Made by a program: the position numbers and the translations under genes
Shown here: piece after piece, positions 29,973-45,168 of the stretch
How positions within the stretch are numbered: the first letter of the stretch is position 1
How the letters are laid out: every line of letters begins with the position of its first letter
Notes under the pieces: model-generated
The model's database searches: none
What the model saw: the letters and a program-made list of their open reading frames with translations, nothing else
What the model was told of the DNA's origin: nothing
Source: an uncultured Psychroserpens sp.
Lineage (GTDB): Bacteria; Bacteroidota; Bacteroidia; Flavobacteriales; Flavobacteriaceae
Length of the DNA: 64,000 nt
Assembly (NCBI RefSeq): GCF_947500255.1
Contig: NZ_CANMRL010000005.1
Span: 1 to 64,000 of the forward strand
Reading direction: 5' to 3'

Positions 29973-31663
29973 TGAGTGACGATAAAAAGGTAATCTTCTC
30001 AATGTCTGGTGTTACAAAGACATTTCAATCTGCAAATACACCAGTACTTAAAAATATTTATTTAAGCTTCTTCTACGGAGCTAAGATTGGAATCTTAGGA
30101 CTTAATGGTTCCGGTAAATCAACATTGCTTAAAATTATTGCTGGTGTAGATAAGAACTATCAAGGAGACGTTGTGTTTTCACAAGATTATTCTGTTGGAT
30201 ACTTAGAACAAGAACCAAAACTTGATGACGAAAAAACAGTGATGGATGTGGTTCGTGAAGGTGCTGCCGAAACTGTAGCTATTCTTGATGAGTATAATAG
30301 TATTAATGACCAATTTGGTTTGGAGGAAGTCTATAGTGATCCAGATAAAATGGAAAAACTGATGAACCGTCAAGCCGAACTTCAAGATCAAATAGACGCG
30401 GCTAATGCCTGGGAATTAGATACCAAGCTGGAAATTGCTATGGATGCATTACGAACTCCAGATGGTGACAAGAAAATTGCTGTACTATCTGGTGGTGAAC
30501 GTCGACGTGTTGCATTATGTCGTTTATTATTACAAGAACCAGATGTATTGTTATTAGACGAGCCTACCAACCATTTAGATGCAGAGTCTGTACATTGGTT
30601 AGAGCATCATTTAGCACAATATAAAGGGACTGTTATTGCGGTAACTCACGATAGATATTTCTTAGATAATGTTGCTGGATGGATTTTAGAGTTGGATAGA
30701 GGCGAAGGTATTCCATGGAAAGGTAACTATTCGTCTTGGTTAGATCAAAAATCCAAACGTATGGCTCAGGAAAGTAAAACTGCATCTAAGCGCCAAAAAA
30801 CCTTAGAGCGTGAGTTAGAATGGGTGCGACAAGGTGCTAAAGGTCGACAGACCAAGCAAAAAGCACGTTTAAAGAATTATGATAAACTCATGAGTCAAGA
30901 TCAAAAACAACTTGATGAGAAATTAGAGATTTATATTCCAAACGGACCACGATTAGGTACAAATGTTATTGAGGCTAAAGGTGTAAGTAAAGGTTATGAT
31001 GATAAGCTATTATATGAAGATCTAAACTTTAATTTACCTCAAGCTGGAATAGTTGGTGTTATTGGACCAAATGGTGCTGGTAAAACCACTATTTTTAGAA
31101 TGATAATGGGTGAAGAAACACCAGATAAAGGAGCGTTTCAGGTTGGAGAAACAGCAAAAATTGCTTACGTTGATCAATCGCACTCTAATATTGATCCAGA
31201 AAAAACAATTTGGCAAAACTTTAGCGATGAGCAGGAATTGGTTATGATGGGCGGAAAACAGGTAAATTCAAGGGCGTATTTAAGTCGTTTTAATTTCTCA
31301 GGTAGCGAGCAAAATAAGAAAGTAAGTTTGTTGTCAGGAGGAGAACGTAACCGCTTGCATTTGGCAATGACGCTTAAAGAAGAAGGCAATGTATTGCTTT
31401 TAGATGAGCCTACTAACGATCTTGATGTCAATACATTAAGAGCATTGGAGGAAGGTTTAGAAAACTTTGCAGGATGTGCTGTGGTGATTTCTCACGACAG
31501 ATGGTTCTTAGATCGTATCTGTACACATATATTAGCTTTTGAAGGGGATAGTCAAGTTTATTTCTTTGAAGGAAGTTTCTCAGATTATGAAGAGAATAAA
31601 AAGAAACGTTTAGGAGGTGATTTAATGCCTAAGCGTATCAAGTATAAAAAATTAGTAAGATAA
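29972..31663 (+). CDS. ettA: Energy-dependent translational throttle protein EttA (ABC-F)
   Basis: A cytoplasmic ABC-F ATPase of 563 residues that acts on the ribosomal E site. It has two nucleotide-binding domains with Walker A GLNGSGKST and GPNGAGKTT, signature motifs LSGGERRRVAL and LSGGERNRLHL, and Walker B LLLDEPTNHLD and LLLDEPTNDLD. The charged inter-domain linker has the EttA signature (RGEGIPWKGNYSSWLDQKSKR). The first domain contains the inserted arm region around VREGAAETVAILDEYNSI. Length and motifs match EttA better than Uup or YheS. A perfect palindromic terminator follows. Confidence 0.95.
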   Translation: MSDDKKVIFSMSGVTKTFQSANTPVLKNIYLSFFYGAKIGILGLNGSGKSTLLKIIAGVDKNYQGDVVFSQDYSVGYLEQEPKLDDEKTVMDVVREGAAETVAILDEYNSINDQFGLEEVYSDPDKMEKLMNRQAELQDQIDAANAWELDTKLEIAMDALRTPDGDKKIAVLSGGERRRVALCRLLLQEPDVLLLDEPTNHLDAESVHWLEHHLAQYKGTVIAVTHDRYFLDNVAGWILELDRGEGIPWKGNYSSWLDQKSKRMAQESKTASKRQKTLERELEWVRQGAKGRQTKQKARLKNYDKLMSQDQKQLDEKLEIYIPNGPRLGTNVIEAKGVSKGYDDKLLYEDLNFNLPQAGIVGVIGPNGAGKTTIFRMIMGEETPDKGAFQVGETAKIAYVDQSHSNIDPEKTIWQNFSDEQELVMMGGKQVNSRAYLSRFNFSGSEQNKKVSLLSGGERNRLHLAMTLKEEGNVLLLDEPTNDLDVNTLRALEEGLENFAGCAVVISHDRWFLDRICTHILAFEGDSQVYFFEGSFSDYEENKKKRLGGDLMPKRIKYKKLVR

Positions 31664-31682
31664 GTGTATATCTTATAAAACT

Positions 31683-31709
31683 AAAAAGCCAGCAATTGCT
31701 GGCTTTTTT
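31683..31709. terminator. Palindromic bidirectional terminator
   Basis: A perfect palindrome (AAAAAGCCAGCA with TGCTGGCTTTTT around a short AATT centre) is flanked by T and A runs. It ends ettA on one strand, and its edge forms the stop region of the small minus-strand gene. Confidence 0.85.
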
Positions 31710-31851
31710 ATTGTTCTTTTATTTGTTTTTTGAGTTTTTCATTTTCCTTTTTTAATGAATAAACTTTAACTAGGTTTATAATTAATAATCCTAGTATGGT
31801 AACTATAGCTATGGATAATATTGTAGTAATTTTTGAAAGATTGGTATCCAT
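31708..31851 (-). CDS. Micro membrane protein with charged C-terminal helix (47 aa)
   Basis: A complete short frame of 48 codons from ATG to TAA. The product starts MDTNLSKITT, has one hydrophobic helix at residues 8-30, and ends in a Lys/Glu-rich amphipathic tail (SLKKENEKLKKQIKEQ) that looks like a short coiled coil. Its start lies 3 bp after the stop of the upstream gene at 31855. That gene encodes a protein with the same design (helix followed by YKLKAENKRL), so the two look like a duplicated pair. No known family comes to mind. Support is the architecture, the tight spacing and the terminator at its end. Confidence 0.55.
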   Translation of the reverse strand: MDTNLSKITTILSIAIVTILGLLIINLVKVYSLKKENEKLKKQIKEQ

Positions 31852-31854
31852 CTT

Positions 31855-32091
31855 CTAGCTGTTGTTATTATTATCATATAAGTGGCCCTCAGTGAAATCT
31901 TGATAGCTTTTATCTATTTCAGATTTATAAAAACTGCTATCTGTTAATCTTTTGTTTTCTGCCTTTAGCTTATACATTTTTATAATAGCTATGGCAATGA
32001 AAATTAAAAAAATAGAAGCAGTCACGATAAGAACTATGGTAAGTTGCATCGTGCTTACAAGGGAAATATTTGAAGTATAAGTAGTTAGCAT
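31855..32091 (-). CDS. Small single-helix membrane protein (64-78 aa)
   Basis: A 78-codon frame with an internal Met at residue 15 that could be the true start (MQLTIVLIVTASIFL, 64 aa). One transmembrane helix is followed by KMYKLKAENKRLTDSSFYKSEID and an Asn-rich end. The upstream region carries a good Bacteroidota promoter (TATATTTG box at 32120-32127), which supports expression and would put the ATG at 32091 about 20 bases inside the transcript. It forms a two-gene unit with the 47-aa gene downstream. The function is unknown. Confidence 0.6.
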   Translation of the reverse strand: MLTTYTSNISLVSTMQLTIVLIVTASIFLIFIAIAIIKMYKLKAENKRLTDSSFYKSEIDKSYQDFTEGHLYDNNNNS

Positions 32092-32119
32092 TAAACTAAG
32101 TTTGTCTTGATTTGGTGTT

Positions 32120-32147
32120 CAAATATACAATAATATTTAAAAAACAA
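32120..32147 (-). promoter_or_regulatory. Bacteroidota-type promoter for the two micro membrane proteins
   Basis: On the minus strand a TTG (32147-32145), 17 bases, then TATATTTG (32127-32120). This fits the TTG/TAnnTTTG pattern and sits 28 bases before the ATG at 32091. Confidence 0.55.
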
Positions 32148-32195
32148 GTTATTTATCTATAAAAAGTTACACTTAATCGATAAAATTGATGTGTG

Positions 32196-32993
32196 TTAAT
32201 TATACCAATCCAATTGCACAACGTCTATATCCTCATCGCCTTGATTGATTAAAGTCTTAAATTTTGAGACATCGCTCATACCATCTTTTCCACGATAATG
32301 GTAAGGATAAACGGCTTTTGGTTTGAATTCTAATACGGCTTCTGCAGCTTTATCAACCGTCATTGTCCAAGGAAGATTCATACATACAAAGGCTTTGTCA
32401 ATATTTTCGAGAGCTCTCATTTCAGCAATATCCTCAGTATCTCCCGAAATATATATACGTTCATTCCCAATTGTTAACACATAACCATTACCTCTTCCTT
32501 TAGTGTGGAACTGTAAAGCTTCTTCTCTTAAATTGTACATAGGTATAGCTTCAACATCAAAACCATTTAAAGTTGCCGAGTCACCATTATTTATAGTCAT
32601 TAGTACCTTAGCTTTTAAATCTTCAGGTAATTTACCCATAACGGTTTTTGGACCAATAATCGTGGCATTAGATAAATCTAAGGCTTTTAATGTTTCTAAA
32701 TTGAGATGATCACCATGTATATCGGTAATTAAAACAAAATCTGGCTTAGAGAATGAAGCAAAGGCTTTCGCTCCTCCTGTAGGATCAACATAAATATCAA
32801 TATCTCCATAGGATAATACCATGGTGGCATGAGAAATAGGATGTATGTCTAATACCTTTTCTTTGTCAGAATTTTCAGCAACAAGTTCACTGTTATCGGC
32901 TTCTGAAGTTTGATTATTGCTTTCTTTTGAGTCTGTTTTACATGAAAAAACAGAGAAACAAGTCACAATTAATAAAAGATTCAAATATTTCAT
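32196..32993 (-). CDS. MBL-fold metallo-hydrolase lipoprotein
   Basis: A 265-residue protein with a lipoprotein signal (hydrophobic segment, then VFSC at about residue 18), so it is probably anchored in the cell envelope. The MBL motif reads TDIHGDHL, that is Asp-x-His-x-Asp-His, with Asp in place of the usual first His. ISGDTED and YPYHYRGKDG follow the typical order. The tail is close to the UlaG/UPF0173-like branch. It may hydrolyse a phosphodiester or lactone; the substrate is unknown. It is unlinked to its neighbours, with about 170 bp separating it from the divergent coiled-coil gene. Confidence 0.8.
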   Translation of the reverse strand: MKYLNLLLIVTCFSVFSCKTDSKESNNQTSEADNSELVAENSDKEKVLDIHPISHATMVLSYGDIDIYVDPTGGAKAFASFSKPDFVLITDIHGDHLNLETLKALDLSNATIIGPKTVMGKLPEDLKAKVLMTINNGDSATLNGFDVEAIPMYNLREEALQFHTKGRGNGYVLTIGNERIYISGDTEDIAEMRALENIDKAFVCMNLPWTMTVDKAAEAVLEFKPKAVYPYHYRGKDGMSDVSKFKTLINQGDEDIDVVQLDWYN

Positions 32994-33165
32994 AGGATAT
33001 CATTTTTGAAAACTTAAAGATAATTACAAATCGAATGCGAATAAAGTTTGTAACAAAATATTATGTTTTACTACTCATATTTTAGGCAGATTAAGTTTTT
33101 AAAATCATATTTTTTAACGAAATTGCTTGTCCTAAATATTGTTCAACTTTAATACACAACATAAT

Positions 33166-34506
33166 ATGTCTGATGATTTTGATTTATTAGAAACGAATTC
33201 CAACGAAAAAACTGAGAAAGTAGATGTTAATTGGGGAAAAGCCATAGACCAAATGAAGTCTAAATTGGCGCAGGAAGATGATCCAGAGAGTCGTCAGAAG
33301 ATTCTAAATGCGACGTTAGATAATGTTGTAGATATGGCCGAAAAAGATAGGTCTACATTATTAGATGCTATTAAAGACCTTACCGATTATCAAGATGAGG
33401 TTGGTATTATGTTCGAAGGCTTTTCTGCGTTAAATGCTGCAGAGCAAAAAATTATAGATGATGCTATCAAACGTTTAGAACGTGCTAAGGTAGAATTAGA
33501 AGACGCAAAAAACACACCTGATACTTGGTGGAATAACCTTTGGGGACGAAAAAGTAAGATCAAAAAAGCAGAAGACGAATTGGCATTAGCTCAAAAAGAA
33601 CGTGATGCTTCAGATAATAAAGCGAAAGCATTATTCCAACAGCGTATAGAAAGTGCCGATGTGCAAACGTTGTTAAATGAATTGTCATTTAAAAGTCAGG
33701 CAGCCATCAAGCGTTTAAAAGATAGAGAACTCGAAATCAAAGAAGTTGAAGAGAGTTTAAAAACCGCTATTGTTGAAGCTAGTAATAATCATACTAAAGC
33801 TTTGGAAAAGAAAAAGCAAGTAGAAGCACAGCTTGAAGAACAATACGCCCTTTTAAAGCAAGCACGTCAGGCTTTAGAAGAAGTGGCAGATAAACAATCT
33901 ACTGAGTACTCTGAAGCGCTTGAAAAAGTAACACAGCTTGAACAAAAAGTAGAAGAACTTGAAGGACTTAAAAATGCTTACACAACTTTAGCAGCTTCTA
34001 AAGATAGTTTTGTACATAAGCATAACTTAACTATAAAAGTATTAACCTCTTTGCGTAGTAATTTACAAACGCATCGTGCAAAACTAAAGAGTGATACAGA
34101 TGAGCGTTTAAAATATTATGATGGATATGTAGTGGCCTTAAAAGCGCGTACAGATCAAGAATTTGCTGCAATTTTAGAGCATTTAGGTGTAAAGACCGAT
34201 GAACATATTGGAGAAACTTTAGCAGCAATGCATACAGCAAGTGCTAAAGCACGTCAAGAGATGATGGATAATATTCCAGTTCATGAAAAAGTAATGCAAG
34301 GTGTGTATGGTAGTTATGCAGAAGCATTAAAAGAAATAAGAACAAAAGACTCTGAAATCCAGAAAAACTTTGCTGATCGTTATGGTATTGATATGAAAGA
34401 AATTTTCGATGAATACTATAAGGCAGATCCAAATGCACCAGCAGATGGAGGTGAACCAGAAGGTGATCCAAAACCAGAATCTAACGACGACGATTTGTTG
34501 TCTTAA
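33166..34506 (+). CDS. Long coiled-coil protein heading the AAA+ cluster
   Basis: A 446-residue, highly charged, mostly helical cytoplasmic protein with no signal peptide. Heptad-like coiled coil runs from about residue 85 to 300 (for example RLERAKVELEDAK, KKKQVEAQLEEQYALLKQARQALEEV, TQLEQKVEELEGL). A more globular helical C-terminal part carries LQTHRAKLKSDTDERLKYYDGYV and EHLGVKTDEHIGETL. The tail is acidic and Pro-rich (PADGGEPEGDPKPESNDDDLLS). The ATG at 33166 (MSDDFDLLE) is preferred to a TTG nine codons earlier. Related proteins have, as I recall, been labelled microtubule-binding in databases, which is only a coiled-coil artefact. It probably serves as scaffold or substrate of the AAA+ ATPase encoded downstream. 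Confidence 0.75.
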   Translation: MSDDFDLLETNSNEKTEKVDVNWGKAIDQMKSKLAQEDDPESRQKILNATLDNVVDMAEKDRSTLLDAIKDLTDYQDEVGIMFEGFSALNAAEQKIIDDAIKRLERAKVELEDAKNTPDTWWNNLWGRKSKIKKAEDELALAQKERDASDNKAKALFQQRIESADVQTLLNELSFKSQAAIKRLKDRELEIKEVEESLKTAIVEASNNHTKALEKKKQVEAQLEEQYALLKQARQALEEVADKQSTEYSEALEKVTQLEQKVEELEGLKNAYTTLAASKDSFVHKHNLTIKVLTSLRSNLQTHRAKLKSDTDERLKYYDGYVVALKARTDQEFAAILEHLGVKTDEHIGETLAAMHTASAKARQEMMDNIPVHEKVMQGVYGSYAEALKEIRTKDSEIQKNFADRYGIDMKEIFDEYYKADPNAPADGGEPEGDPKPESNDDDLLS

Positions 34507-34516
34507 AATAATGATG

Positions 34517-34609
34517 GCGTTACCCTCTTCCGCTAAAAAGCTACAGAGGGTCAGGCTATCGCAAGTCGCTCTCTACGAGGAGCTCCAACAGGTGCTCCAT
34601 CCTTAACGC
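34517..34609. repeat. REP-like structured intergenic element
   Basis: A GC-richer block of 93 bp bounded by the inverted ends GCGTTA and TAACGC. It has internal dyads CCCTC...GAGGG and GGAGC...GCTCC, and contains GGGTCAGGCTATCGC. It resembles the palindromic elements that I recall recurring in flavobacterial genomes next to TAACGC ends. There is only one copy in this window. It could fold as an mRNA structure between two cotranscribed genes. Confidence 0.5.
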
Positions 34610-34619
34610 GAATACAATT

Positions 34620-34799
34620 ATGAAAAAATATTTTTTAGCCTCTCTCGCAGTAGTAGTTGTTTGTGCAGGTGTTATATCATTCATCTATTTTTCCAATGAT
34701 CATTCAGAGTGTGAATTGGCAACTGAGATTACTTTCAATGAAAATGGCGAAAAGGTAACAACCGAAACACACATTTGTAAAGAGAAATTCAATTTATAA
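34620..34799 (+). CDS. Micro protein with N-terminal membrane/signal helix (59 aa)
   Basis: A complete 60-codon frame from ATG to TAA. It begins MKKYFLASLAVVVVCAGVIS, a basic start followed by a hydrophobic helix (about 4-24). A polar 34-residue tail with Cys31 and Cys53 follows, which could form a disulfide outside the cytoplasm. It lies in the same direction between the coiled-coil gene and the 347-aa gene, 23 bp before the latter. There is no recognised family. Codon use and the Lys-Lys start are normal for this genome, so I consider it a probable real gene. Confidence 0.55.
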   Translation: MKKYFLASLAVVVVCAGVISFIYFSNDHSECELATEITFNENGEKVTTETHICKEKFNL

Positions 34800-34822
34800 A
34801 TCATAGAATGTATATCTAAAAT

Positions 34823-35866
34823 ATGATTGTAACTCCATTAGATTCAGCAATATTAGACTCTAAAGAGCAGTATGTCTTCTATCATAAAATGATAGACTTT
34901 ACGCTTAAAGAGCTAATCGTTGCGGTACAACAAAAGCAGATACTTACTGAGCAAGAAGTACTCTTGTTTAAACAGTATTGTGATTTGCTATTGTATTCAA
35001 TCGAAGCCATGCGTGTGAAATATATGTATGACGATGAGGAAAACATGAAGGTAGATTTAACAGATTCTGGTTTTCCAAACTATTTAGAGTTTCGTTATTT
35101 ATTTAATGACCTTGGTTTGCGTGAAGATTATTTAGGCAAGCTTACTAATATAGATGTATTAAAAGAAGAATTTCTAGACACGCTATTGAGAAAAAAAGAA
35201 CCAATAGCTCAGCGAAAGTTATTTCAAGCATCTTCTATAGTGTATTACACGTCTGCTAAAAAAGAGTATATTTTTAACCGTTTTGTTCAAGGCAAGATTA
35301 TAGAAGCGCCTCAAGGTTCACCAGGACAATATTTAGTAAGCTGGAGTTTTTATGAAGTATCACATAACAGACCGTTTATTTGCTATATGTATTTTGATTA
35401 CGATGGCAGTAATCCTCTTAAAGACAGAGACGAAATTTACTATGCTTTAAAAACAGTAGCAGATCGCGAATTGGCTATGGATATGATGGCTTATGCTATT
35501 GATAAACGTTTACCAAAAGTATTGCCTAAGCTAGTGAAGCGTGTTGATCTTGGACCAATACATAACGTTTTCGCAAAAGATGAGAATGAAATTACACATG
35601 CCATTCTCGATGGAATAGCGAAAAAGACGATTCCTTTAGAATCGTATGCCATCTCATTTAAAATTGACGAAGTTAGTTCTAAGAGCGAATTTAAAGAAGG
35701 TAGTTTCTTTAGTAAACAAACCTTTCAAAACTGGGATGCTGTGTTTAGACAACGCTATGTGTTTGCACCACACCGAATCATACAGTTATTATATAACAAA
35801 ACACCTGAGATTATGAACAAGTTAGCAAAGGCGCCAATTCAGATCGCAGATTTAAAAATGAAATAA
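34823..35866 (+). CDS. Conserved-looking protein of unknown function (347 aa), AAA+ cluster
   Basis: A soluble mixed alpha/beta protein with no signal peptide, membrane segment or known enzyme motif. Notable parts are a helical N terminus (KMIDFTLKELIVAVQQKQIL), an aromatic-rich middle (YLVSWSFYEVSHNRPFICYMYFDYDG), and a C-terminal segment with FAPHRIIQLLYNKTPEIM. It is followed 14 bp later by the AAA+ ATPase gene and must be coexpressed with it. It could be an adaptor or regulatory partner of the ATPase. I do not recognise the family. Confidence 0.7.
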   Translation: MIVTPLDSAILDSKEQYVFYHKMIDFTLKELIVAVQQKQILTEQEVLLFKQYCDLLLYSIEAMRVKYMYDDEENMKVDLTDSGFPNYLEFRYLFNDLGLREDYLGKLTNIDVLKEEFLDTLLRKKEPIAQRKLFQASSIVYYTSAKKEYIFNRFVQGKIIEAPQGSPGQYLVSWSFYEVSHNRPFICYMYFDYDGSNPLKDRDEIYYALKTVADRELAMDMMAYAIDKRLPKVLPKLVKRVDLGPIHNVFAKDENEITHAILDGIAKKTIPLESYAISFKIDEVSSKSEFKEGSFFSKQTFQNWDAVFRQRYVFAPHRIIQLLYNKTPEIMNKLAKAPIQIADLKMK

Positions 35867-35880
35867 ATTTTACCCATCAT

Positions 35881-37839
35881 ATGGAACACAATTCAACATT
35901 TCCTATAAAACAAAATGAACTCGATATGCTTCGTGATGAAGCAACATCCTACATTAAAAGTATTCAGTGGGAACAAGGGCAACGTGCAAAAAATAAAGAT
36001 AAAGACGCTAAAGATGAGTCGATATTATTGTATTTGTCACGAGCTAAGGGAAATGGTGGAGCCGAAATAACGTCTGTATCCAAAACCATATTAGAACTAA
36101 AAAAAAGACTGTTGCCTGAGTCGATTGCTATTCCATTGCATCTTAACCAAACACTATATGCCGTTCAAGAAGGAATAACATTGGGGATTTGGATCAAAGA
36201 CAGTTATTATGACGCTTCCGGATTGTCAAGTTTAGCAGAGAACAAATCGGCTTTGGATAATTCTGGTCGACGTGAGTATGAAAGTAAAATGCAAACTGGT
36301 ACAGCGTTTATGTTATTTGCCACTGCCTACAAGATTTTACATGATTTAAAAACAGTTGCTTCCGACGATCTCAGTGTGATGAAGAATAAATTTGCAGGGA
36401 TTCCAGAGGTGTCTATTATGTCACCATTAAAAGGCATATCATGTGCGTTATTTTACTATGATAAATATTTAGGGCATCCAGAAATCATTAAATCTGATAA
36501 AGATGTCATCGATTTTACAGTGGTTTATTTTGAAGCTTTAATTGCAGAGATTCAAATGCGTAAAAGTAGCTTGGAGTATACCGAAACAGTTACGGATAGA
36601 ACCTATAAACTTGAGAAGTCAGATTTTGCAGTATCAGGTTGGGATAATGTATTTCAAGGTGCGGCAAAAAGTGTCGAATTTAATAAAATTCAATTCGAAC
36701 AAATTGTAGGTAATAGAGACGCAAAACATTTCGCACGTCGTTTAACAGAGCGCATGCTGAGCTACGATTTTGATGCTAAGAAAAATCCGTTCCAAGAATT
36801 GGGTGGTTTTATGCCAGTATTTATGGGCTATGGAATTCCTGGGACAGGTAAAAGTATGTTGATTGCAGCTATCGCAACACGACTAAAAGAACATTGTGAT
36901 AATTTAGACATCCCGTTTTTATTTCACCCAATGCCAGATACACTTATTTCGACCTTCCAAGGTGGATCAGCTGAAAAAATGGTAGAATGGATGAAGCCAT
37001 TACAAGATCCTTCAAAATTAATATTTGCACCAATTGATGATGCCGAAAATAACTTACAAGAACGTACAGCTCAAGGAGTCTCTGCTGGTGTAAAAGAGGT
37101 GATTGGTGTATTTCTAAGATATACAGAAGGTGCTTATGCGGTAAACTACGGAAATAGCTCAATTGGCTTGTTTACCAACTTACCAGAAATGTTAGATAAG
37201 GCTGTTATTTCTCGTGTTCAAGGCCGTTTTAAAATAGATGGTGCTCGTACCGAACATGACTTTTTAGATCAAGATCATTTGTGGTGGAGAAAATTAGATA
37301 CAACAATGCCAGATTTTGTAAATATGCAAGGGCCTAATGATTATAAATATCTTCAAGATCAAGGTTTGGCAAAAAATATGGGAGAAATCTTAAAAGTATC
37401 CGACAAGCCTACAGAAGAACGCGTATTAGAGGCTTATGATAAAGTTGAAAAACAATTTAAATCAACTGAACATTTGTTCTATGCTAATCTGTATAAAGAG
37501 ATTCAGAAATTATTTCCATTTTTCTCATCTCGTGATGTGCGTAATATACAAAGTGCAGTGTCGTTACGCTTAACCGACTTTGACTTGGAAAAAGATTGGT
37601 TTGAGAATCCAGAGATCTACTTTCAAAAAGACTATGAAACAAAGTTCAATATGCTTCAGGAATTAATGCGAGCGAATATGAAAGGTTTAGATTTCTCTGA
37701 AATTCGTCGCCAGGAAGTGGTGCGATATTTAGATAATGTGGCAACTATTGCAGACACAGACTTTAAGCGAAAAGTAGATGCGAGAATTAATCAGTTGAAT
37801 ATTGAAACGGAAGCTAGAGAGCAGTTTGGGAAAATATAA
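35881..37839 (+). CDS. AAA+ family ATPase (652 aa), core of uncharacterised cluster
   Basis: A cytoplasmic ATPase with one AAA+ module in the middle. Walker A is GIPGTGKS at about residues 318-325. The Walker B position reads KLIFAPIDDAENN, with Asp-Asp instead of Asp-Glu. A pore-loop-like STFQGGSAEK lies between them. A sensor-1/arginine-finger region follows (GLFTNLPEMLDKAVISRVQGRF). The N-terminal 300 residues and C-terminal 150 residues are helical and match no family that I know. It has 14 bp to the gene before it and 5 bp to the gene after. The likely role is ATP-driven remodelling of a partner protein, perhaps the coiled-coil or membrane proteins of the cluster. Confidence 0.85.
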   Translation: MEHNSTFPIKQNELDMLRDEATSYIKSIQWEQGQRAKNKDKDAKDESILLYLSRAKGNGGAEITSVSKTILELKKRLLPESIAIPLHLNQTLYAVQEGITLGIWIKDSYYDASGLSSLAENKSALDNSGRREYESKMQTGTAFMLFATAYKILHDLKTVASDDLSVMKNKFAGIPEVSIMSPLKGISCALFYYDKYLGHPEIIKSDKDVIDFTVVYFEALIAEIQMRKSSLEYTETVTDRTYKLEKSDFAVSGWDNVFQGAAKSVEFNKIQFEQIVGNRDAKHFARRLTERMLSYDFDAKKNPFQELGGFMPVFMGYGIPGTGKSMLIAAIATRLKEHCDNLDIPFLFHPMPDTLISTFQGGSAEKMVEWMKPLQDPSKLIFAPIDDAENNLQERTAQGVSAGVKEVIGVFLRYTEGAYAVNYGNSSIGLFTNLPEMLDKAVISRVQGRFKIDGARTEHDFLDQDHLWWRKLDTTMPDFVNMQGPNDYKYLQDQGLAKNMGEILKVSDKPTEERVLEAYDKVEKQFKSTEHLFYANLYKEIQKLFPFFSSRDVRNIQSAVSLRLTDFDLEKDWFENPEIYFQKDYETKFNMLQELMRANMKGLDFSEIRRQEVVRYLDNVATIADTDFKRKVDARINQLNIETEAREQFGKI

Positions 37840-37844
37840 GTGTC

Positions 37845-39080
37845 ATGAACAAGCTAAAAGCAGCAAATCTATATCGAAGTGAACTCATTCCAATATCTGG
37901 AAAGCTGGTAGAGCGTTATAATAAATGCTTACTAAAACTCGGCTTTACAGAAACTACGCTTACCCATTTTCATGTGGATGGTATTGGTTGGAGTCCTGAA
38001 GTAGCTGAAGAAAAAAACGACGAGAATTACTTGTGTAATGGCGAGTCTAATCCGCATGGTATTATCATTTCCCCTTTACAAAATAAAAAACCGGTCTATT
38101 TGCCATACCATACCTTCGACAGAGATATGATGGTGCAAGTGTTTAAAACACATGGTGATAAGATTAATGATATTACACGTGACTCGGCAATTTGTATAGA
38201 TTTCGATCAAAATATTGATGCATTTTATGAACCATTAGATGTGTTGAGATATGAAACTGTTACTATTAGATTCCACTTAATTGACAACCTCGATTATGTA
38301 AGAGAGGAACAATTGCAGCTCATTGAAAAATTTAAGCATGGCAATAACTTTATCGATGAGGATATTCACAATCAGCTTCTTGAATCGGCTAATAAATATG
38401 GCGATTTAAGAGAGCGTGATCTCAATTTGGAGGATATTAAATTTAAAACAGATTCGTTTTACACTAAATCTTTTGGAGGTGTTTATGTATTAAGAGATTT
38501 TATTTCTCCCATTGTTGTTTTCGAAAACAAAAAATGGTACAAAGAAGCTATTAAGGATACTGTGCAAGAAGTGATTATTTTTCATATCAAACAACCGCAA
38601 TTGATGGAAAAACTTAGAGATCACATCATCATTGCCTATGATTTAGAAGATATTGTCAATACCAAACGTTATGAGCGCATCAAAAAATTTGAATTTGCTC
38701 AATATTTAAAGGATACTAAGCACCCAATTAAAGATATTTTAAACGACCAATTACTATTTAAAAGTTATTTAAATAAGGTCGATATTAAAACGAGAAAGAA
38801 AGTAATGAGCGTAGAACGTTACTTGGAGAAACTCGAAAAAAGTAACGAGTATAAAATTTCAGATATTGTTGATAATGATTTATTTGAGGCGATGCATGAA
38901 CCACACTCAAGTTTACACCCAAAACATCAAGACCTTATTTGGAAACTTCTCATCAATATAGCACCAAAGGATGTCCTGTTTATGTATTGGTACGATAAGC
39001 AAGAGTTTTACAAGCAGTATGGCACTTGGGAAGAGTCATTACAAGACTGGGTTATTGAAACGATTAGTAACAATATTTAA
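37845..39080 (+). CDS. Protein of unknown function (411 aa), AAA+ cluster
   Basis: A soluble protein with no signal peptide or membrane helix. The N-terminal half contains FHVDGIGWSPEVAEEKND and GIIISPLQNKKPVYLPYHTFDRDMM. The middle is helical and charged, and the end is aromatic (FMYWYDKQEFYKQYGTWEESLQDWV). No catalytic motif is evident and I do not recognise the family. It starts 5 bp after the ATPase gene, the tightest spacing in the cluster. This suggests a stoichiometric partner of the ATPase. Confidence 0.7.
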   Translation: MNKLKAANLYRSELIPISGKLVERYNKCLLKLGFTETTLTHFHVDGIGWSPEVAEEKNDENYLCNGESNPHGIIISPLQNKKPVYLPYHTFDRDMMVQVFKTHGDKINDITRDSAICIDFDQNIDAFYEPLDVLRYETVTIRFHLIDNLDYVREEQLQLIEKFKHGNNFIDEDIHNQLLESANKYGDLRERDLNLEDIKFKTDSFYTKSFGGVYVLRDFISPIVVFENKKWYKEAIKDTVQEVIIFHIKQPQLMEKLRDHIIIAYDLEDIVNTKRYERIKKFEFAQYLKDTKHPIKDILNDQLLFKSYLNKVDIKTRKKVMSVERYLEKLEKSNEYKISDIVDNDLFEAMHEPHSSLHPKHQDLIWKLLINIAPKDVLFMYWYDKQEFYKQYGTWEESLQDWVIETISNNI

Positions 39081-39124
39081 GAAATTTAGACTAACTTTAT
39101 AAAGCATCAACTAAAACTACAACT

Positions 39125-39667
39125 ATGGGAACTGATATTATCATATTTATCGTAGCCGTTCTATTCGGAATTTTTATCTATTGGAGAGAATCTAATGGTA
39201 ATGGTGCGTATCGCTTTATTAATAAAATAGTCAATAGTAAAGAATTACAAATGAGTGCCGATAATCCAAAAGGATTTGTATATAAACAAGCATTCATCCC
39301 ACGACTAATTTTTATTGTAAGCATTGTTTTGATTGCTGCATTAATTCTCGAGTTTTTAACACCTATTTCGGTCTTTGCAAGTTATTATGGTGTGTCGGCA
39401 TTTGCATCTTTCGCCTCAGGCTCTCTATTAGGAACATATTTGGCTAATATAGTTATTAAATCAAGCAAAGTTATTGAAGAGCAAAGTGAATCTCTAGAAG
39501 ATAAGTTTGAAAATGTAGTTGAAAAAGGAAAGGAATTTATTGACGACCTAAAAACTAGAGACGCTAAAGTAGTCGAAGATACAAGTGAGGATATACAAAC
39601 TGAACCTGAACCTAAAGTGAATGAAAAGTCGGCTCGCGACCGATTGAAAGATAAGGGGCTAATGTAG
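39125..39667 (+). CDS. Membrane protein with cytoplasmic acidic tail (180 aa), AAA+ cluster
   Basis: One helix at residues 4-20, then a basic loop, and two more helices at about 57-77 and 80-108. A charged amphipathic helix follows (SESLEDKFENVVEKGKEFIDDLKTRD) with a tail ending ARDRLKDKGLM. There are no enzymatic motifs. It probably anchors a complex to the inner membrane. It lies 44 bp after the 411-aa gene and 45 bp before the next membrane protein. Confidence 0.7.
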   Translation: MGTDIIIFIVAVLFGIFIYWRESNGNGAYRFINKIVNSKELQMSADNPKGFVYKQAFIPRLIFIVSIVLIAALILEFLTPISVFASYYGVSAFASFASGSLLGTYLANIVIKSSKVIEEQSESLEDKFENVVEKGKEFIDDLKTRDAKVVEDTSEDIQTEPEPKVNEKSARDRLKDKGLM

Positions 39668-39712
39668 TTAGTTATTCCAAAATTGATGTAGAGTCCTTAC
39701 GAATTATAAATA

Positions 39713-41461
39713 ATGCTGCTCACAAAGCAGAATGTCAAAACTTATCAAATGATTAAATCTTACTGGAATAAAGGAAAGAAGCAAAAAACCATAACAATTA
39801 TAGTTGGTATTATCTTGCTCATTGCATTGTTTGTGCTTCGTGATGATTATCAACCGGCATTATTGTTTTTTAGAAAATTCATATTTATCATCATACTGAG
39901 TTTGGTTGTGCTATATTTTGGTTTAAGAAAATTTCGAAAAACTGCAAGCACAGGAAAACGCCTTGGAATTTTAGGATTACTTGCTGCATTTTTCGCTCTT
40001 CTTTATCTCGCTGGTTGGCATTTAGGCTTATATGATTATATGAAAACCTATAATGTATTCAATGATTTAAATAAAGTAGAAATCAACGAATTGCCATTAA
40101 CTCAAAATGAGCGCATTCAACCCTTACGAAATATCTTTTCGATGGCCAACGAAAGTGTAGGTGAGACCAAAGATGTATCCTTACCTCATTTGGTGCGTGT
40201 TGACAATGAAAATAAATGGACAATGGCTATTCAACCTTCTGAAAAATATATCATGCAGCGTATTAGCGATAATACCGAAGAAGTATTTGCAGTATCTAGT
40301 ACGACGCCTTTTCCGCGTTTTTCTGCCGAAAACCGTATTCCAGTAACATTTTCTATTGGAGAATCCTTAAAATTCAGCCGAAACACCTACAATGCTGTAG
40401 TACAACGTTTCAATCCATGGATGTTATTTAATTATGAGCCTAGCGATACATTTTATATTAAGAACGATTCAGGAGAATGGGTTCAAGTGGTAAGTTTGAT
40501 TAAATGGAAAGGTTTTTTCTTTCCTTATCCAACATTTGGAGGCGTGATGGTTATAGAAAGTGGAGAGCACGATTTTAATGATTACTTAGAACGTATTGCT
40601 ATTGGAAAGGGTACATTTATCGTTCCAGATGAGATGAAGAATTATCCGTATCTCACCAAACAAAATACGCTTGCCGAAAAAGTATCACGATTGCAAGCAG
40701 AATCGTTGAAATTTCTGGGTGGATTTAGTGATCCCTTACCATGGAATATGGAAACTGCGGTGAAAATTCCAATAATGCCAGAAGACCAAAATCAACAGCC
40801 TTTTGTTACCGATTTTGATTTTGCAGACTCTGAAAGTGATGCGTATAGCGGATTATATCATTGGTTTGGATTAGAACCTGTTGGTCTAGAGCGTACAAGT
40901 TTGAGTTATAGCGTATTTGTTCCTGCCGATGGTACAGATAAATTGTATTACTATGATCATGCGGCAAAAAAACAAGGGTATGCAGGTGTATCTGCCATGC
41001 CTTTAAAGATGATAGAATCTCGAAAAGAATTTGATTGGGATGCCAATAAGCCTGTAGAATTTAGACCTTATATTAAAGATATTGCTGGTCGTAAGCGTTT
41101 ATTCTTTTTAGGAACTGTTTCTGCAATAAATAAAGAAGGTCAATTTGATGGATCGGCTACACCAGATTTAGCACTCGTCGATAGTGAGTATCGTGATGTG
41201 ATTTGGATTGATGTAAAGCATCCAAGTACATGGGACAAAACTATTTACGAACAATTAGGTGAGGCGTGGCGCTCTAGTGAAGGTATTGGCTATTATTTTC
41301 AAGAAGACAAAACAGATGTTGATATTCTACAAGAGCAGATTCAAGAAAAATTTAAAGCCATTGACACCAGTGCTCATAATGAGGGAATTGATAAGAATAA
41401 AGCTGAAATTGAACGTCTCAAAAGAAAATTAGATTCATTGCAGGCTTTGGATGGGAATTAA
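39713..41461 (+). CDS. Large membrane-anchored protein of unknown function (582 aa), AAA+ cluster
   Basis: Three hydrophobic helices near the N terminus (about 26-42, 52-70 and 84-102) are followed by a soluble domain of about 450 residues, rich in aromatic beta-strand-like segments (GFFFPYPTFGGVMVIESGEHD, LYHWFGLEPVGLERTSLSYSVF). It ends with a short C-terminal coiled coil (NKAEIERLKRKLDSLQAL). An alternative start is the ATG at 39749 (MIKSYWNKG). The orientation of the large domain is uncertain; with three helices and a basic N terminus it could face the periplasm. It may be the membrane or envelope end of the AAA+ machine. Confidence 0.7.
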   Translation: MLLTKQNVKTYQMIKSYWNKGKKQKTITIIVGIILLIALFVLRDDYQPALLFFRKFIFIIILSLVVLYFGLRKFRKTASTGKRLGILGLLAAFFALLYLAGWHLGLYDYMKTYNVFNDLNKVEINELPLTQNERIQPLRNIFSMANESVGETKDVSLPHLVRVDNENKWTMAIQPSEKYIMQRISDNTEEVFAVSSTTPFPRFSAENRIPVTFSIGESLKFSRNTYNAVVQRFNPWMLFNYEPSDTFYIKNDSGEWVQVVSLIKWKGFFFPYPTFGGVMVIESGEHDFNDYLERIAIGKGTFIVPDEMKNYPYLTKQNTLAEKVSRLQAESLKFLGGFSDPLPWNMETAVKIPIMPEDQNQQPFVTDFDFADSESDAYSGLYHWFGLEPVGLERTSLSYSVFVPADGTDKLYYYDHAAKKQGYAGVSAMPLKMIESRKEFDWDANKPVEFRPYIKDIAGRKRLFFLGTVSAINKEGQFDGSATPDLALVDSEYRDVIWIDVKHPSTWDKTIYEQLGEAWRSSEGIGYYFQEDKTDVDILQEQIQEKFKAIDTSAHNEGIDKNKAEIERLKRKLDSLQALDGN

Positions 41462-41596
41462 TCTTCATTCTACTTTCAACTCAGAATAATATAACACGAC
41501 TAACATTTCTTACTTGATTGATAGGTGTTCTTCGCATATATATTAATAAAGATGTAACAAACCCTCCGGTTTTCAGACCTATATATAAAGTCTATT

Positions 41597-42091
41597 ATGG
41601 GCGGTTACATGGGATTTGGAATGGCGAAGTGGATTTACACACAGCGTCCGCAGAAAGCTTTTTCTAAAAAGAAATGCAAGCCTACATGCAATACATTGCC
41701 TACTTATAGTCGTCAATTTAAACTTCAACCTTCTAAACAAACAGGTCATTTTTATATCGTCATAAGCTTACTTCTTCTTGGATTGATATTTTCTGGATTT
41801 TATTTTAAAGCACCAGATTTTGTCGAACACTCCAATAAGATAAGTGTACAAAAGCTAGCCTATAATAAAAGTAGAGATAAAGAGGCATTTCAATTTTTAG
41901 TATCGTCTGGAACTAAAAGGTTGAAAAGAAATAATTTAAAGGCCGCATATTCAGAGTTTAAGTTGGCCTATGTTATTTATCCTGAAAATGAGCATTTGCA
42001 TCAGCTACTAGTTGAAACTCTCAGTGCTTTGTGTAAGGATGGAAATACCTATTGTGCTGATTTGGACAAAATATTAAGTCATTCACTTTAG
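41597..42091 (+). CDS. Single-pass membrane protein with TPR-like C-terminus (164 aa)
   Basis: The protein starts with a distinctive GGYMGFGMAKWIYTQRPQKAF segment, followed by a basic region with two Cys (KKKCKPTCNT) and one transmembrane helix at about residues 52-71. The C-terminal 60 residues look like a pair of TPR-type helices (FQFLVSSGTKRLKRNNLKAAYSEFKLAYVIYPENEHLHQLL). It lies 135 bp after the 582-aa gene, so it may or may not share its transcript. The end overlaps the convergent MarR-GNAT gene by 9 bp. The role is unknown; a docking protein of the same envelope complex is possible. Confidence 0.65.
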   Translation: MGGYMGFGMAKWIYTQRPQKAFSKKKCKPTCNTLPTYSRQFKLQPSKQTGHFYIVISLLLLGLIFSGFYFKAPDFVEHSNKISVQKLAYNKSRDKEAFQFLVSSGTKRLKRNNLKAAYSEFKLAYVIYPENEHLHQLLVETLSALCKDGNTYCADLDKILSHSL

Positions 42092-43036
42092 TCTCAATTC
42101 CATTTTAATATTGCTGCGCTCATAAGGGCTATCCTTTTCCAACTCTAGCTCTATAAACCCATATTTCTTATAAATATATATTGCATTTTCCAATATTGTG
42201 TTAGAGTAGAGCATAAGCGCTTTATGATTATTTGCTTTTGCAAAATCAATACAATGTTGCATTAAGTGCTGCCCGATTTTTTGCCCGCGTTGATTAGGTA
42301 AAACAGCCATTTTTGTCAATTCAAAAATCAAAGGCGTTTCTGTTGGCATTAAAGCCACAGTACCTAAAATAGTATCACCACGTTTGGCAAAAAAGATATG
42401 CCCTCCTTTGTTGATAATGTATGTGTCGGGTTTGCTCAAGACTTCCTCATCAAAAGACTCTACGTAGAAGTAGGTTTTAAGCCATTCTATATTTAGGTCA
42501 TAAAAGCTTTGAGCATATTGAACATCATAATTAATAATCTCAAAATTGTTGGAGACTTCCTTTTTTGCCATATTAATAATGGCTTCACTTAAGCTTTTAT
42601 GTTGCAATTTATCTTCCATCTTGTTGAGATGTTCTGTTAGCGAATTGGACGAATGTAAGGTATAATATTTGACAACTATGTCAATAGCTCTCCATAGAGG
42701 TTTCATACGAACGACCAGAGTTTCTCCTTTTTTTGACAAGGTTAATATCTTTTTTCTTTTATCTAATTTATCATTTTCTAGTTTGAGCAGGTCTTTAGAT
42801 ATAAGCTTATTTACTGCCTGAGTTATTGCTGGTTGTGACAGTTTTAAAGCTTTTTTGATTTCCACATTTGTCACTCCCTTTTTGTTTTGAATTATTTTTA
42901 TAACAGGAAATAAGTAAGGGTCAAAATCGATATTAAAATGATCGTAAGTATATTGAACCTCTTTCATAATGAAATCACTTAATCTCTTTAATCGGGATCC
43001 CAAAGCTAACTCGCTAAAACCTCTTAATGCATCCAT
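42083..43036 (-). CDS. Bifunctional MarR regulator fused to GNAT acetyltransferase
   Basis: A 317-residue two-domain protein. Residues 1-145 are a MarR-type winged helix (VTNVEIKKALKLSQPAITQAVNKLISKDLL, then a KRKKILTLSKKG wing). Residues 165-317 are a GNAT domain with the acetyl-CoA loop MAVLPNQRGQKIGQHLMQHC and NAIYIYKKYGF. Such fusions occur across bacteria, and the acetyltransferase is thought to modify a metabolite or protein under the same control. It lies 53 bp downstream of hutG in the same direction, which suggests a link to histidine or glutamate metabolism. Confidence 0.85.
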   Translation of the reverse strand: MDALRGFSELALGSRLKRLSDFIMKEVQYTYDHFNIDFDPYLFPVIKIIQNKKGVTNVEIKKALKLSQPAITQAVNKLISKDLLKLENDKLDKRKKILTLSKKGETLVVRMKPLWRAIDIVVKYYTLHSSNSLTEHLNKMEDKLQHKSLSEAIINMAKKEVSNNFEIINYDVQYAQSFYDLNIEWLKTYFYVESFDEEVLSKPDTYIINKGGHIFFAKRGDTILGTVALMPTETPLIFELTKMAVLPNQRGQKIGQHLMQHCIDFAKANNHKALMLYSNTILENAIYIYKKYGFIELELEKDSPYERSNIKMELRLK

Positions 43037-43089: not shown

Positions 43090-44112
43090 TTAAAAGGATT
43101 CCCGCGCTCTGATAAAGTCAGTAATTAAATAGGAGATAAGTTTACCAACTTGAGTGGGCTGTTCTTGAGTAGGAGCAGCTTCACATATATGAAGATACGA
43201 CACCAGTTCCTGCTTTCCGAAGTAATGCACAAAAGCTCTGGCTTTATTTGTAGAAAAACCACTTGGAGTCATAGCGCTACTAGGTATATTCTGTATGGCA
43301 TCACAATCAATTTCTAAACCAAATGGCTTATCAGAGACATGATTTGAAGCGTTTTCCATTTCGGTATCAAAGTTAGTATCTCGCCTAATCATCATGCTTT
43401 CAAATGTGCTATATTGTATTTGCTTCAGTTTTTTTAAGGTTTTAAAACTAGTTTCAGATGTATAATTTTCGTGCAAACCAAAAACAAAGTAATTTTTCAA
43501 GAAACCTTCAGCATAAGCATAACTAAATCCGTTACCACTATGTCGACCTTCTTCAGCTCTAAAATCATGATGTGCATCAAAGTTTACAGCATTTATCGCC
43601 TTTTTAAGCGCCAATGAAGTGCCTTTAATATTTCCATAAGCATTATTATGACCACCACCAATAATAATTGGAATCTTACCTGCACTTACAATTTGCGAAA
43701 CGAGATAAGCCACAGATTCATCTATTTTTGATACTTTTTTCCGAGCTTTTTGAATGTCTTTTTTCTTGTTCTGATCTAACTTTTTTAGCTTTTCTTGATA
43801 AGAATCAAATTCCAAATGACCCAAAACCACTACTTTTTTTGCATGCGTATACGCATTACTTTGCACGTTTAACAAAATATTAATTGCAGCGTCCCAAGCC
43901 TTGGAAGTCCCAGTATTGCCGTAATTGGCGAAAACTCCAACGTCTTCTTTTATACCAAAAATGACATAGGTGACATCTAATTTTGATAGTTGTTCGTATA
44001 TATTGGAGAAGTCTGGAAACAACAAGACGTGTTCTCCAAATTTGGTCTCTTTAGGACGTTTGTTCAGAATATTATTTAATTCTGAATTCGTAAAAGGTTT
44101 TAAGTGTTCCAT
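43090..44112 (-). CDS. hutG: Formimidoylglutamase (arginase/ureohydrolase family)
   Basis: A 340-residue di-manganese ureohydrolase. Metal motifs are GGGHNNAYG, NFDAHHDFR and EIDCDAIQ, in the order expected for arginase-type enzymes. The third motif has Glu-Ile in place of the usual Ser-Leu. Together with hutI 1.6 kb away, the most likely role is hydrolysis of N-formimino-glutamate to glutamate and formamide, the last step of histidine breakdown. Agmatinase or arginase activity cannot be fully ruled out. The hutH and hutU genes are not in the window. Confidence 0.82.
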   Translation of the reverse strand: MEHLKPFTNSELNNILNKRPKETKFGEHVLLFPDFSNIYEQLSKLDVTYVIFGIKEDVGVFANYGNTGTSKAWDAAINILLNVQSNAYTHAKKVVVLGHLEFDSYQEKLKKLDQNKKKDIQKARKKVSKIDESVAYLVSQIVSAGKIPIIIGGGHNNAYGNIKGTSLALKKAINAVNFDAHHDFRAEEGRHSGNGFSYAYAEGFLKNYFVFGLHENYTSETSFKTLKKLKQIQYSTFESMMIRRDTNFDTEMENASNHVSDKPFGLEIDCDAIQNIPSSAMTPSGFSTNKARAFVHYFGKQELVSYLHICEAAPTQEQPTQVGKLISYLITDFIRARESF

Positions 44113-44223
44113 TTACAAAATTGATTAATTTTGATGTATTAAAAGTACAGTTTTTTTATTTTCGGCTTCAAATAAAATTGAAAGAATTAACTTTAAAATA
44201 ACTAGTAAACAAAACGTAAACTT

Positions 44224-45105
44224 ATGGACAATTCAAACAGTAAGAGTACAGGATTAAAAATTGCTTTAGGAATCCTTTTAGCATTATTTTTAGGTACAGG
44301 TTTTTATACATCAAAACTGTACAATGAGAAAAAAGAAAACGAGGCGACATTAACACGCGAAAAAGAGCAGGTAATGGCCGATTTAAGTACAATGGCAAAA
44401 CAGTATGATGTTGCTATTGGTGAAAACGAAGTTGCTAACGAGAAATTGTTAGGTGCTAGAGAACGTATTCAAGGCTTAATGGATTCTTTAAAAATATCTC
44501 AAAATAGTGTGAACAGCTTATGGAGATATAAAAAGAAATTTTTAGCACTACAGGACGAAATGGATGTTCTTATGGCTGAAAACGATAAGCTTAAGGTAGA
44601 GAACTCATTATTAGCATCTACATTAGATAGTACAAATGTGCAATTAGCTGAGCGTACTGTATTCACAGATTCACTTTTAGTGCAAAACACACAGTTGGCC
44701 GAAGTTGTAGAAAATGCAGCAGTATTGCAAACAACAGATCTTAAAGGATTTGGTGTGATTGAGAGAAGTTCTGGGAAATTGATTCCTACAGAAAGAGCAA
44801 GACGTAGTGATAAAATTAGAGTATGTTATACAGTGGCTAAGAACAGATTGGTTGGAGCAGGAGATAAAGAATTGTATGTTCAAGTGTTGGATCCAAAAAA
44901 CAATGTTTTAGGTGCTAATGAGCAAATTCAATTTGATGATACAGTATTGAATTACAGTTTGATTAGCAAGTTTAACTACGAAAATAGAAATTTAAATATT
45001 TGCGAGTTTGTGGCTCCAAATGAAGAGTTTGAGAAGGGACGATATGTCGTTAACGTTTTCAACAATAAAGAACTAGTATCTTCTTCAGAATTCACACTGA
45101 AGTAA
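44224..45105 (+). CDS. Membrane-anchored coiled-coil protein of unknown function (293 aa)
   Basis: A single N-terminal helix (residues 11-28, LKIALGILLALFLGTGFY) is followed by a periplasmic coiled coil (about 35-160, with EKKENEATLTREKEQVMADL and MDVLMAENDKLKVENSLLAS). A C-terminal beta domain of about 120 residues follows (KIRVCYTVAKNRLV, then ELYVQVLDPKNNVLG and RYVVNVFNNKELV). I recall similar conserved hypotheticals in flavobacteria but no function. It is transcribed alone between the two hut loci and has its own terminator at 45131. Confidence 0.7.
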   Translation: MDNSNSKSTGLKIALGILLALFLGTGFYTSKLYNEKKENEATLTREKEQVMADLSTMAKQYDVAIGENEVANEKLLGARERIQGLMDSLKISQNSVNSLWRYKKKFLALQDEMDVLMAENDKLKVENSLLASTLDSTNVQLAERTVFTDSLLVQNTQLAEVVENAAVLQTTDLKGFGVIERSSGKLIPTERARRSDKIRVCYTVAKNRLVGAGDKELYVQVLDPKNNVLGANEQIQFDDTVLNYSLISKFNYENRNLNICEFVAPNEEFEKGRYVVNVFNNKELVSSSEFTLK

Positions 45106-45130
45106 AAGAAACAATGGTTTAGGTTAGTTA

Positions 45131-45163
45131 AAATCCGGAGAGCTTTAGGTCTCCGGATTTTTT
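45131..45163. terminator. Terminator between convergent genes
   Basis: A perfect stem (AAATCCGGAGA with TCTCCGGATTT) and 8-base loop followed by T residues. The stem is GC-rich for this genome. Confidence 0.85.
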
Positions 45164-45168
45164 ATGTC

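Follow-up and report, generated by a model that had tools for sequence, protein, structure and literature searches.

The closest described counterparts of the genes treated here are Vps4 with ESCRT-III (archaeal Cdv, eukaryotic ESCRT), the VCP/Cdc48-like and FtsH/i-AAA proteins, and bacterial PspA/Snf7 neighbourhoods with AAA+ ATPases, for which membrane remodelling was proposed, according to the excerpts consulted of a survey of phage shock protein (PSP) systems (mSystems 2024, PMC11237479). The present analysis concerns a block of genes at positions 33166–42091 of a stretch of 64,000 nucleotides, called the window, from an uncultured Psychroserpens sp. of the family Flavobacteriaceae (assembly GCF_947500255.1, contig NZ_CANMRL010000005.1, positions 1–64,000, forward strand). 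Six of these genes, encoding a coiled-coil protein (cc446), a soluble protein (u347), an AAA ATPase, a DUF6638 protein (d411) and two membrane proteins (m180 and m582), form one conserved and co-inherited system, as is well supported by their order and joint occurrence. It is an unnamed AAA system containing several nameless families, its soluble core is kept in order across two phyla, and it was present in about a third of the sampled genomes of the window's family.

The window ATPase resembles Vps4 in its single classical AAA domain, which stands near Vps4 and VCP, and in its aromatic pore loop; as with ESCRT-III, a helical partner is linked to it, whose C-terminus in Bacteroidota bears a short conserved motif. 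It differs from Vps4 in having no MIT or Vps4_C match (Pfam, E up to 0.5) and in its Asp-Asp Walker B, and from the ESCRT-III arrangement in that the coiled-coil partner has no Snf7 or PspA Pfam match and that u347 and DUF6638 are linked here. The system would therefore appear to be Vps4/ESCRT-III-like in outline rather than by demonstrated kinship with ESCRT-III. By sequence, VCP/Cdc48-like and FtsH/i-AAA proteins have some of the nearest AAA domains of solved structure; the window ATPase differs from them in that it has a single AAA domain, matches no M41 peptidase in Pfam and has unrelated N- and C-terminal regions. In the PspA/Snf7 neighbourhoods, too, an AAA ATPase adjoins a coiled-coil protein; the excerpts of the survey describe PspA or Snf7 and partly ATPases with two AAA domains, in contrast to one AAA domain and a coiled-coil protein which is not detectably PspA, and nothing matching the present gene set occurs in them (PMC11237479). 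A further partial likeness is offered by the hcp3 type VI secretion system (T6SS) locus of Pseudomonas fluorescens MFE01, where the excerpts describe DUF2333, Nudix and amidase genes (PMC5256989): a DUF2333 gene follows DUF6638 in Sinorhizobium meliloti and Shinella, and a Nudix gene lies inside the cluster in many Flavobacteriaceae, but the same excerpts mention no AAA, DUF6638 or coiled-coil gene, and the DUF2333/T6SS link is a lead only. Among open-licence PubMed Central papers, DUF2333 is named in this one paper only and DUF6638 (PF20343) in none, and broader text searches of that collection, in the extracts returned, gave nothing recognised as this system.

Contigs from one genome per species gave 319 pattern matches, 301 of which encode a relative of the ATPase; the best 80 of these 301, which are hence biased to near relatives, were used as "close loci", and the six core genes were located in them by tblastn. 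All six were found in 77 of the 80, in the order coiled-coil protein (446 amino acids, aa), u347, AAA ATPase (652 aa), DUF6638 protein (411 aa), m180 and m582 (about 570 aa), and in 80/80 the genes present share one strand and one order. The three incomplete loci are L040 and L077, whose contigs end within the cluster, and L087, whose contig ends about 1.1 kb past the DUF6638 gene; gene by gene, cc446 was present in 79, u347 in 79, DUF6638 in 80 and m180 in 77 close loci. Twenty further loci of the family, with ATPases 72–85% identical ("more diverged"), had the same order throughout (20/20), and 17 of them carry all six genes. L118 holds only the coiled-coil, u347 and ATPase genes, L132 is without the membrane pair at the locus, and in L131 coiled-coil and u347 genes were not seen within the 2 kb available before the ATPase gene. 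Gene order can break while the m582 gene is kept: in the genome of L118 (G087, also that of L179) m582 lies elsewhere, with none of the other five around it and beside an open reading frame (ORF) which we take to be recQ-like, and in that of L132 (G122) it is on another contig.

Among 149 genomes of the family the ATPase was detected in 48 and m582 in 47, all of them among the 48; the sole genome with the ATPase and without m582 (G147) is 73% complete and its ATPase match is cut short. Searches with ATPase and with u347 picked out the same five among 395 genomes of the phylum, and DUF6638, absent from 14/14 well-known control genomes, was found in 4/296, all four among those five. With a profile of diverged ATPases, full-length matches were obtained in 5/247 genomes of the class, namely the genome of the window and four which represent three other families. 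In three of these (L143, L145, L146) all six genes were recognised by profile hidden Markov models (HMMs) in the same order; in L144 five were recognised, and the place of m180 is taken by an ORF of 170 aa which escaped the HMM; it has three hydrophobic segments, and its tail is similar. Most genes in the four loci are tightly packed or overlapping, an additional 208-aa ORF separates u347 and ATPase in L145, and identities are 42–45% for the ATPase and 27–29% for the coiled-coil protein. Since the six-gene order recurs in distant genomes, it is more than chance, and a joint occurrence of at least five of the genes in such genomes, which the earlier note had named as support, was observed. Independent genes are ruled out by shared order and co-occurrence. 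An eight-gene unit, as proposed in that note, is ruled out as well: the conserved multi-gene assembly around ATPase and coiled-coil protein stood, but it comprises six genes, and those for 59 and 164 aa, present in 10/80 and 23/80 close loci, are bystanders local to a few loci. One genus of another family has the system in 2/9 genomes, or 2/6 of the near-complete ones (search round G544); the order-wide search round G575 covered one genome only. An ABC-F gene lies within 5 kb upstream of the cluster in 66/80 close loci.

Searches with one sequence, or with profiles made from the family only, detected the system inside the family only, and a wider ATPase profile together with tblastn against plasmids found the rest. 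Of 72,556 plasmid records, 10 contain the ATPase (four Vibrio, four Sinorhizobium, one Rhizobium, one Shinella), and the identical 10 were recovered with the ATPase and with the DUF6638 protein of Sinorhizobium as queries. The loci of 5 of these 10 were examined; all five carry the genes for coiled-coil protein, u347, ATPase and DUF6638 in this order on one strand. E-values, computed at Z=100000 in place of those from a very small set, were 5e-8 to 8e-14 for the coiled-coil protein, 2e-23 to 3e-29 for u347 (5/5 loci), 5e-63 to 9e-87 for the ATPase and 1e-29 to 3e-55 for DUF6638. Because coiled coils give false matches, those of the coiled-coil protein were checked with reversed and shuffled sequences: the real scores across phyla were 35–54 bits, reversed sequences gave -5 to -14 and the best of 250 shuffles 4.9. 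Profile-profile alignment of the Bacteroidota and the Vibrio/rhizobial coiled-coil proteins (hhalign) yielded a probability of 98.5%.

The four soluble proteins are thus a shared core, and the membrane part varies between lineages. The m180/m582 pair was not found in the five Vibrio and rhizobial loci examined and is seen in Bacteroidota only. In S. meliloti a DUF2333 gene follows DUF6638, and its counterpart in Shinella is 70% identical; each product has two hydrophobic segments. Homology between m582 and DUF2333 was not supported (hhalign <1%, with two DUF2333 sequences only). In Rhizobium leguminosarum the ORF after DUF6638, with no transmembrane (TM) segment seen, is presumably rpoD. Vibrio has a DUF3592 gene with three TM segments on the opposite strand, beyond an mfd gene (L148:12136-15597) which follows the core; before the core (L148:5383-6222) lies a gene for an unknown protein of 279 aa which lacks a TM segment, and the locus is on a large secondary replicon. 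The ATPase and DUF6638 genes of S. meliloti Ak57 are separated (L149:10491-12236) by genes for an ISRm16 transposase and a protein with an endonuclease domain.

The ORF coordinates of the window agree with the earlier description of eight ORFs on the + strand (446, 59, 347, 652, 411, 180, 582 and 164 aa), with spacers of 14, 5, 44 and 45 bp from the u347 gene to the m582 gene. The features, with motif counts among 109 ATPase homologues (80 close, 20 further family, 4 other-family and 5 proteobacterial), are as follows.

33166–34506, + strand: cc446, coiled-coil protein, 446 aa; alternative of 455 aa from an upstream TTG
34620–34799, + strand: 59-aa membrane ORF within the block, not a conserved member (10/80 loci)
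34823–35866, + strand: u347, soluble protein of unknown family, 347 aa
35881–37839, + strand: AAA ATPase, 652 aa, single AAA domain at about residues 265–455; N- and C-terminal regions unknown
36826–36855, + strand: Walker A GYGIPGTGKS, residues 316–325 (G.PGTGK[ST] in 109/109)
36949–36963, + strand: pore-loop-like STFQG (aromatic-Q-G), residues 357–361 (S.[FY]QG in 109/109)
37033–37041, + strand: Walker B I-D-D, residues 385–387, Asp replacing the usual catalytic Glu (IDD in 109/109)
37845–39080, + strand: d411, DUF6638 protein, 411 aa (PF20343, E 4e-32)
39125–39667, + strand: m180, predicted membrane protein, two strong TM segments, charged tail with RLKDKG end (TM scan)
39749–41461, + strand: m582, three predicted N-terminal TM segments, then a large domain (TM scan); alternative start 39713
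41597–42091, + strand: 164-aa membrane ORF adjoining the block, not a conserved member (23/80 loci)

According to the earlier note none of the proteins has a recognisable defence, secretion or metabolic signature. Six of them are without a Pfam or NCBIfam family over the curated cut-off (the nearest Pfam match, below that cut-off, links the TM region of the 582-aa protein to DUF4199, E 2e-4), and two belong to named families: the 652-aa protein is Pfam AAA (36 bits against a cut-off of 21.2, E 1e-8) and the 411-aa protein is DUF6638 (112 bits against 27). Scans of the eight proteins with PADLOC and PHROGs, for which no cut-offs are listed, gave weak matches only, such as IetA, DnaC-like and other proteins on the AAA core and an Rz-like spanin for the 59-aa ORF (E 0.03). 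An FtsH-family match among the eight proteins also lies on the AAA core. The ATPase of Psychroserpens luteolus is 100% identical to that of the window.

The Pfam AAA match is over the cut-off also in the homologues of L143, Vibrio and Sinorhizobium, and the nearest PDB sequences, aligned over the AAA region, are VCP-like proteins, Vps4, i-AAA, Spastin, Cdc48 and Rpt4; a PDB search with the profile of Flavobacteriaceae ATPases, by comparison, gave no match at the limits used, though single ATPase sequences match. The Flavobacteriaceae alignments are shallow. The Walker B segment is LIFAPIDDAENN; its D386-D387 stands in the position of the D-E of VCP-like AAA proteins, with which the Asp-Asp pair aligns. 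This unusual pair, already remarked on in the earlier note, occurs instead of Asp-Glu in 109/109 homologues, as do Walker A, the aromatic pore loop and sensor 1 (F[TS]N). An Asp in place of the catalytic Glu usually slows hydrolysis, and the invariant Asp-Asp Walker B suggests a slow or switch-like hydrolysis of ATP. The TM scan showed no segment in any of the four soluble proteins, whether from the window, L143, Vibrio or Sinorhizobium. Over 76 loci the mean pairwise difference was 0.125 for the ATPase, 0.129 for the coiled-coil protein, 0.27 for u347, 0.28 for DUF6638 and 0.37 for m180, in a comparison which covers these five proteins.

The coiled-coil protein carries an N-terminal FDLL motif and ends with the peptide DDLLS after a Pro/Asp-rich tail. 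Its Bacteroidota homologues have FDLL near the start in 101/101 and a D[LM][LM]x end in 99/101 cases; neither motif is seen in the proteobacterial coiled-coil proteins displayed. For five homologues no Pfam match to Snf7 or PspA_IM30 was listed, Snf7 having been compared through Pfam only. An assignment to PspA was not supported (hhalign <1% against 9 PspA sequences, those of 20 loci over the cut-off which passed a length filter, 11 being dropped). PspA_IM30 had no match in the window genome or in five other genomes of the family and a match in 22/61 genomes of the phylum; six family genomes are too few to judge an anticorrelation. Toxic anion resistance (TelA) proteins are, like the coiled-coil protein, long helical cytosolic proteins, and TelA had been suspected from the helical pattern; the coiled-coil protein differs in having no Pfam TelA match, and hhalign gave <1% against 3 TelA sequences (the fourth of the set was a 9-residue fragment), so that this assignment was not supported either. 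In a fold search with the predicted model the helical proteins matched were of ClyA, BAR and dynamin-like types (best Z 13.4, root-mean-square deviation (rmsd) 6.0 over 282 residues), which may, as the search tool warns, mean a common arrangement only; the matches listed contained neither PspA nor ESCRT-III chains. Weak PADLOC matches were to LmuB (E 4e-4) and JetC (E 1e-3). PDB sequence searches with profiles of u347, DUF6638, coiled-coil protein and m582 gave no match at the limits used, and homology between u347 and DUF6638 was not supported (hhalign <1%).

According to the TM scan, m180 has two segments and m582 three before its large domain. Since positive charges occur on the N-terminus and the second loop of m582, the large domain is suggested to be periplasmic. 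The conserved part in the alignment of relatives begins at MIKSYW, and the likely start of m582 is therefore 39749, with a product of 570 aa. A fold search with the m582 model gave weak PepSY-like matches to YpeB (Z 5.3, rmsd 2.9 over 67 residues) and YpmB (Z 4.9, rmsd 5.7 over 120 residues), both scores being below the level which the search tool calls meaningful.

The system is more coherent and more widespread than the earlier note could see; its mechanism we infer. The best reading, which we hold tentatively and with nearly even confidence, would be an ATP-driven remodeller of the coiled-coil partner, Vps4/ESCRT-III-like in action and anchored to the membrane in Bacteroidota. The AAA protein would form a ring, whose aromatic pore loop would pull on or unfold the coiled-coil protein and so free it from an assembly; u347 and DUF6638 could be adaptors or loading factors, the FDLL and DDLLS ends of the coiled-coil protein (in Bacteroidota) and the end of the m180 tail may be docking peptides, and m180 and m582 would anchor the machine at the inner membrane and link it to the periplasm. 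The job in Bacteroidota would probably be maintenance or remodelling of the envelope. The invariant pore loop and the linkage of the genes make it plausible that the ATPase remodels the coiled-coil protein; further hints are the nearness of the AAA domain to VCP-like proteins and Vps4, the retained motor motifs, and the slower change of these two proteins than of u347, DUF6638 and m180. As for the membrane anchoring proposed in the earlier note, it could apply where the m180/m582 pair is seen, in Bacteroidota. Several observations weigh against the remodeller. The same-strand neighbours checked in Vibrio and R. leguminosarum include no evident membrane protein, and an envelope role may therefore not be general; the set is split in G087 and G122; the distribution is patchy (48/149 family genomes, 2/9 in one genus); distances of ATPase and partners between loci are only moderately correlated (Spearman 0.26–0.48); the coiled-coil model is poor (predicted local distance difference test, pLDDT, 66) and matches generic helical bundles; the change of Glu to Asp could mean little hydrolysis, and hence a switch or scaffold; and we know of no interaction, ATPase activity or phenotype for the system. 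A more specific form, which we regard as somewhat unlikely, would be a remodeller of its own kind, in which a slow Asp-Asp AAA protein with two adaptors disassembles a polymer of the coiled-coil protein, the engine being shared by Bacteroidota and Proteobacteria, the membrane receptors being lineage-specific, and the whole unrelated in sequence to ESCRT-III and PspA. If the remodeller is true, bacteria would possess a machine moving coiled-coil assemblies which is not recognisably related to ESCRT-III.

Since hydrolysis is usually slower when Asp takes the place of Glu, a switch-like cycle has to be weighed seriously against the remodeller. Here the Asp-Asp AAA ring would bind ATP, rarely hydrolysing it, so as to assemble coiled-coil protein and adaptors in a complex for signalling or positioning. 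The replacement of the catalytic Glu in 109/109 homologues speaks for such a slow switch or scaffold, and DnaA, a slow hydrolyser, has an Asp-Asp Walker B as well; yet a pure scaffold need not keep the aromatic-Q-G pore loop, Walker A and sensor 1, which are present without exception, and we consider this rival unlikely overall. Should the Asp-Asp pair of Walker B act as a slow switch, the role of the catalytic glutamate in classical AAA proteins could be tested on a natural example. Quite improbable is an assembly or quality-control chaperone, whose core would fold, deliver or extract m582, or DUF2333 in some rhizobia: m582 was confined, among 149 family genomes, to those with the ATPase (47 of the 48), was retained when moved off the cluster in G087 and G122, and the membrane slot differs between phyla, but Vibrio and R. 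leguminosarum have the core without an evident same-strand membrane partner beside it, and conservation is far higher in the coiled-coil protein than in m180. A patchily carried defence or conflict system would account for 48/149 family genomes and for 2/9 (2/6 near-complete) in one genus, and for the weak matches of the AAA protein to IetA (E 4e-5) and of the coiled-coil protein to LmuB and JetC (E 4e-4 and 1e-3). These PADLOC matches, however, span the AAA core or the coiled coil only, the cluster has a fixed place at most 5 kb downstream of the ABC-F gene in 66/80 close loci, no homologue was found in phages or viral contigs, and ATPase and coiled-coil protein change slowly, so that defence appears very improbable. 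IetAS itself was not supported: the IetA match is limited to the AAA core and no IetS-like peptidase was among the matches of the eight block proteins, the only ones scanned. A phage origin likewise gained no support, with no phage homologue for the Vibrio ATPase as query and none confirmed of 73 pattern matches in viral contigs.

A gene for a Nudix hydrolase of the YffH/AdpP family is situated between the ATPase and DUF6638 genes in 54/80 close and 2/20 more diverged loci (e.g., L059:11030), not in the window. The enzyme stands near NudK, scoring 226 bits where the NudK cut-off is 234, and may be an optional partner of the system. Small genes of four-helix-bundle (TIGR02436) and presumably GIY-YIG-like type occupy differing gaps of the cluster in differing loci (L021–L100), as if independently inserted, the latter matching an intron endonuclease model below its cut-off.

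An Rfam scan of 31000–43000 gave nothing at the gathering threshold, and a terminator scan of 31600–42300 found 8 against 5.3 expected. One match on the + strand lies within the ATPase gene and was read as chance; a terminator-like stem-loop on both strands (31683–31708) is placed after the ABC-F gene and before the genes which precede the cluster. Downstream, at 43090–46951 of the window, are minus-strand ORFs which we take to be histidine-utilisation genes (formimidoylglutamase-like and HutI-like).

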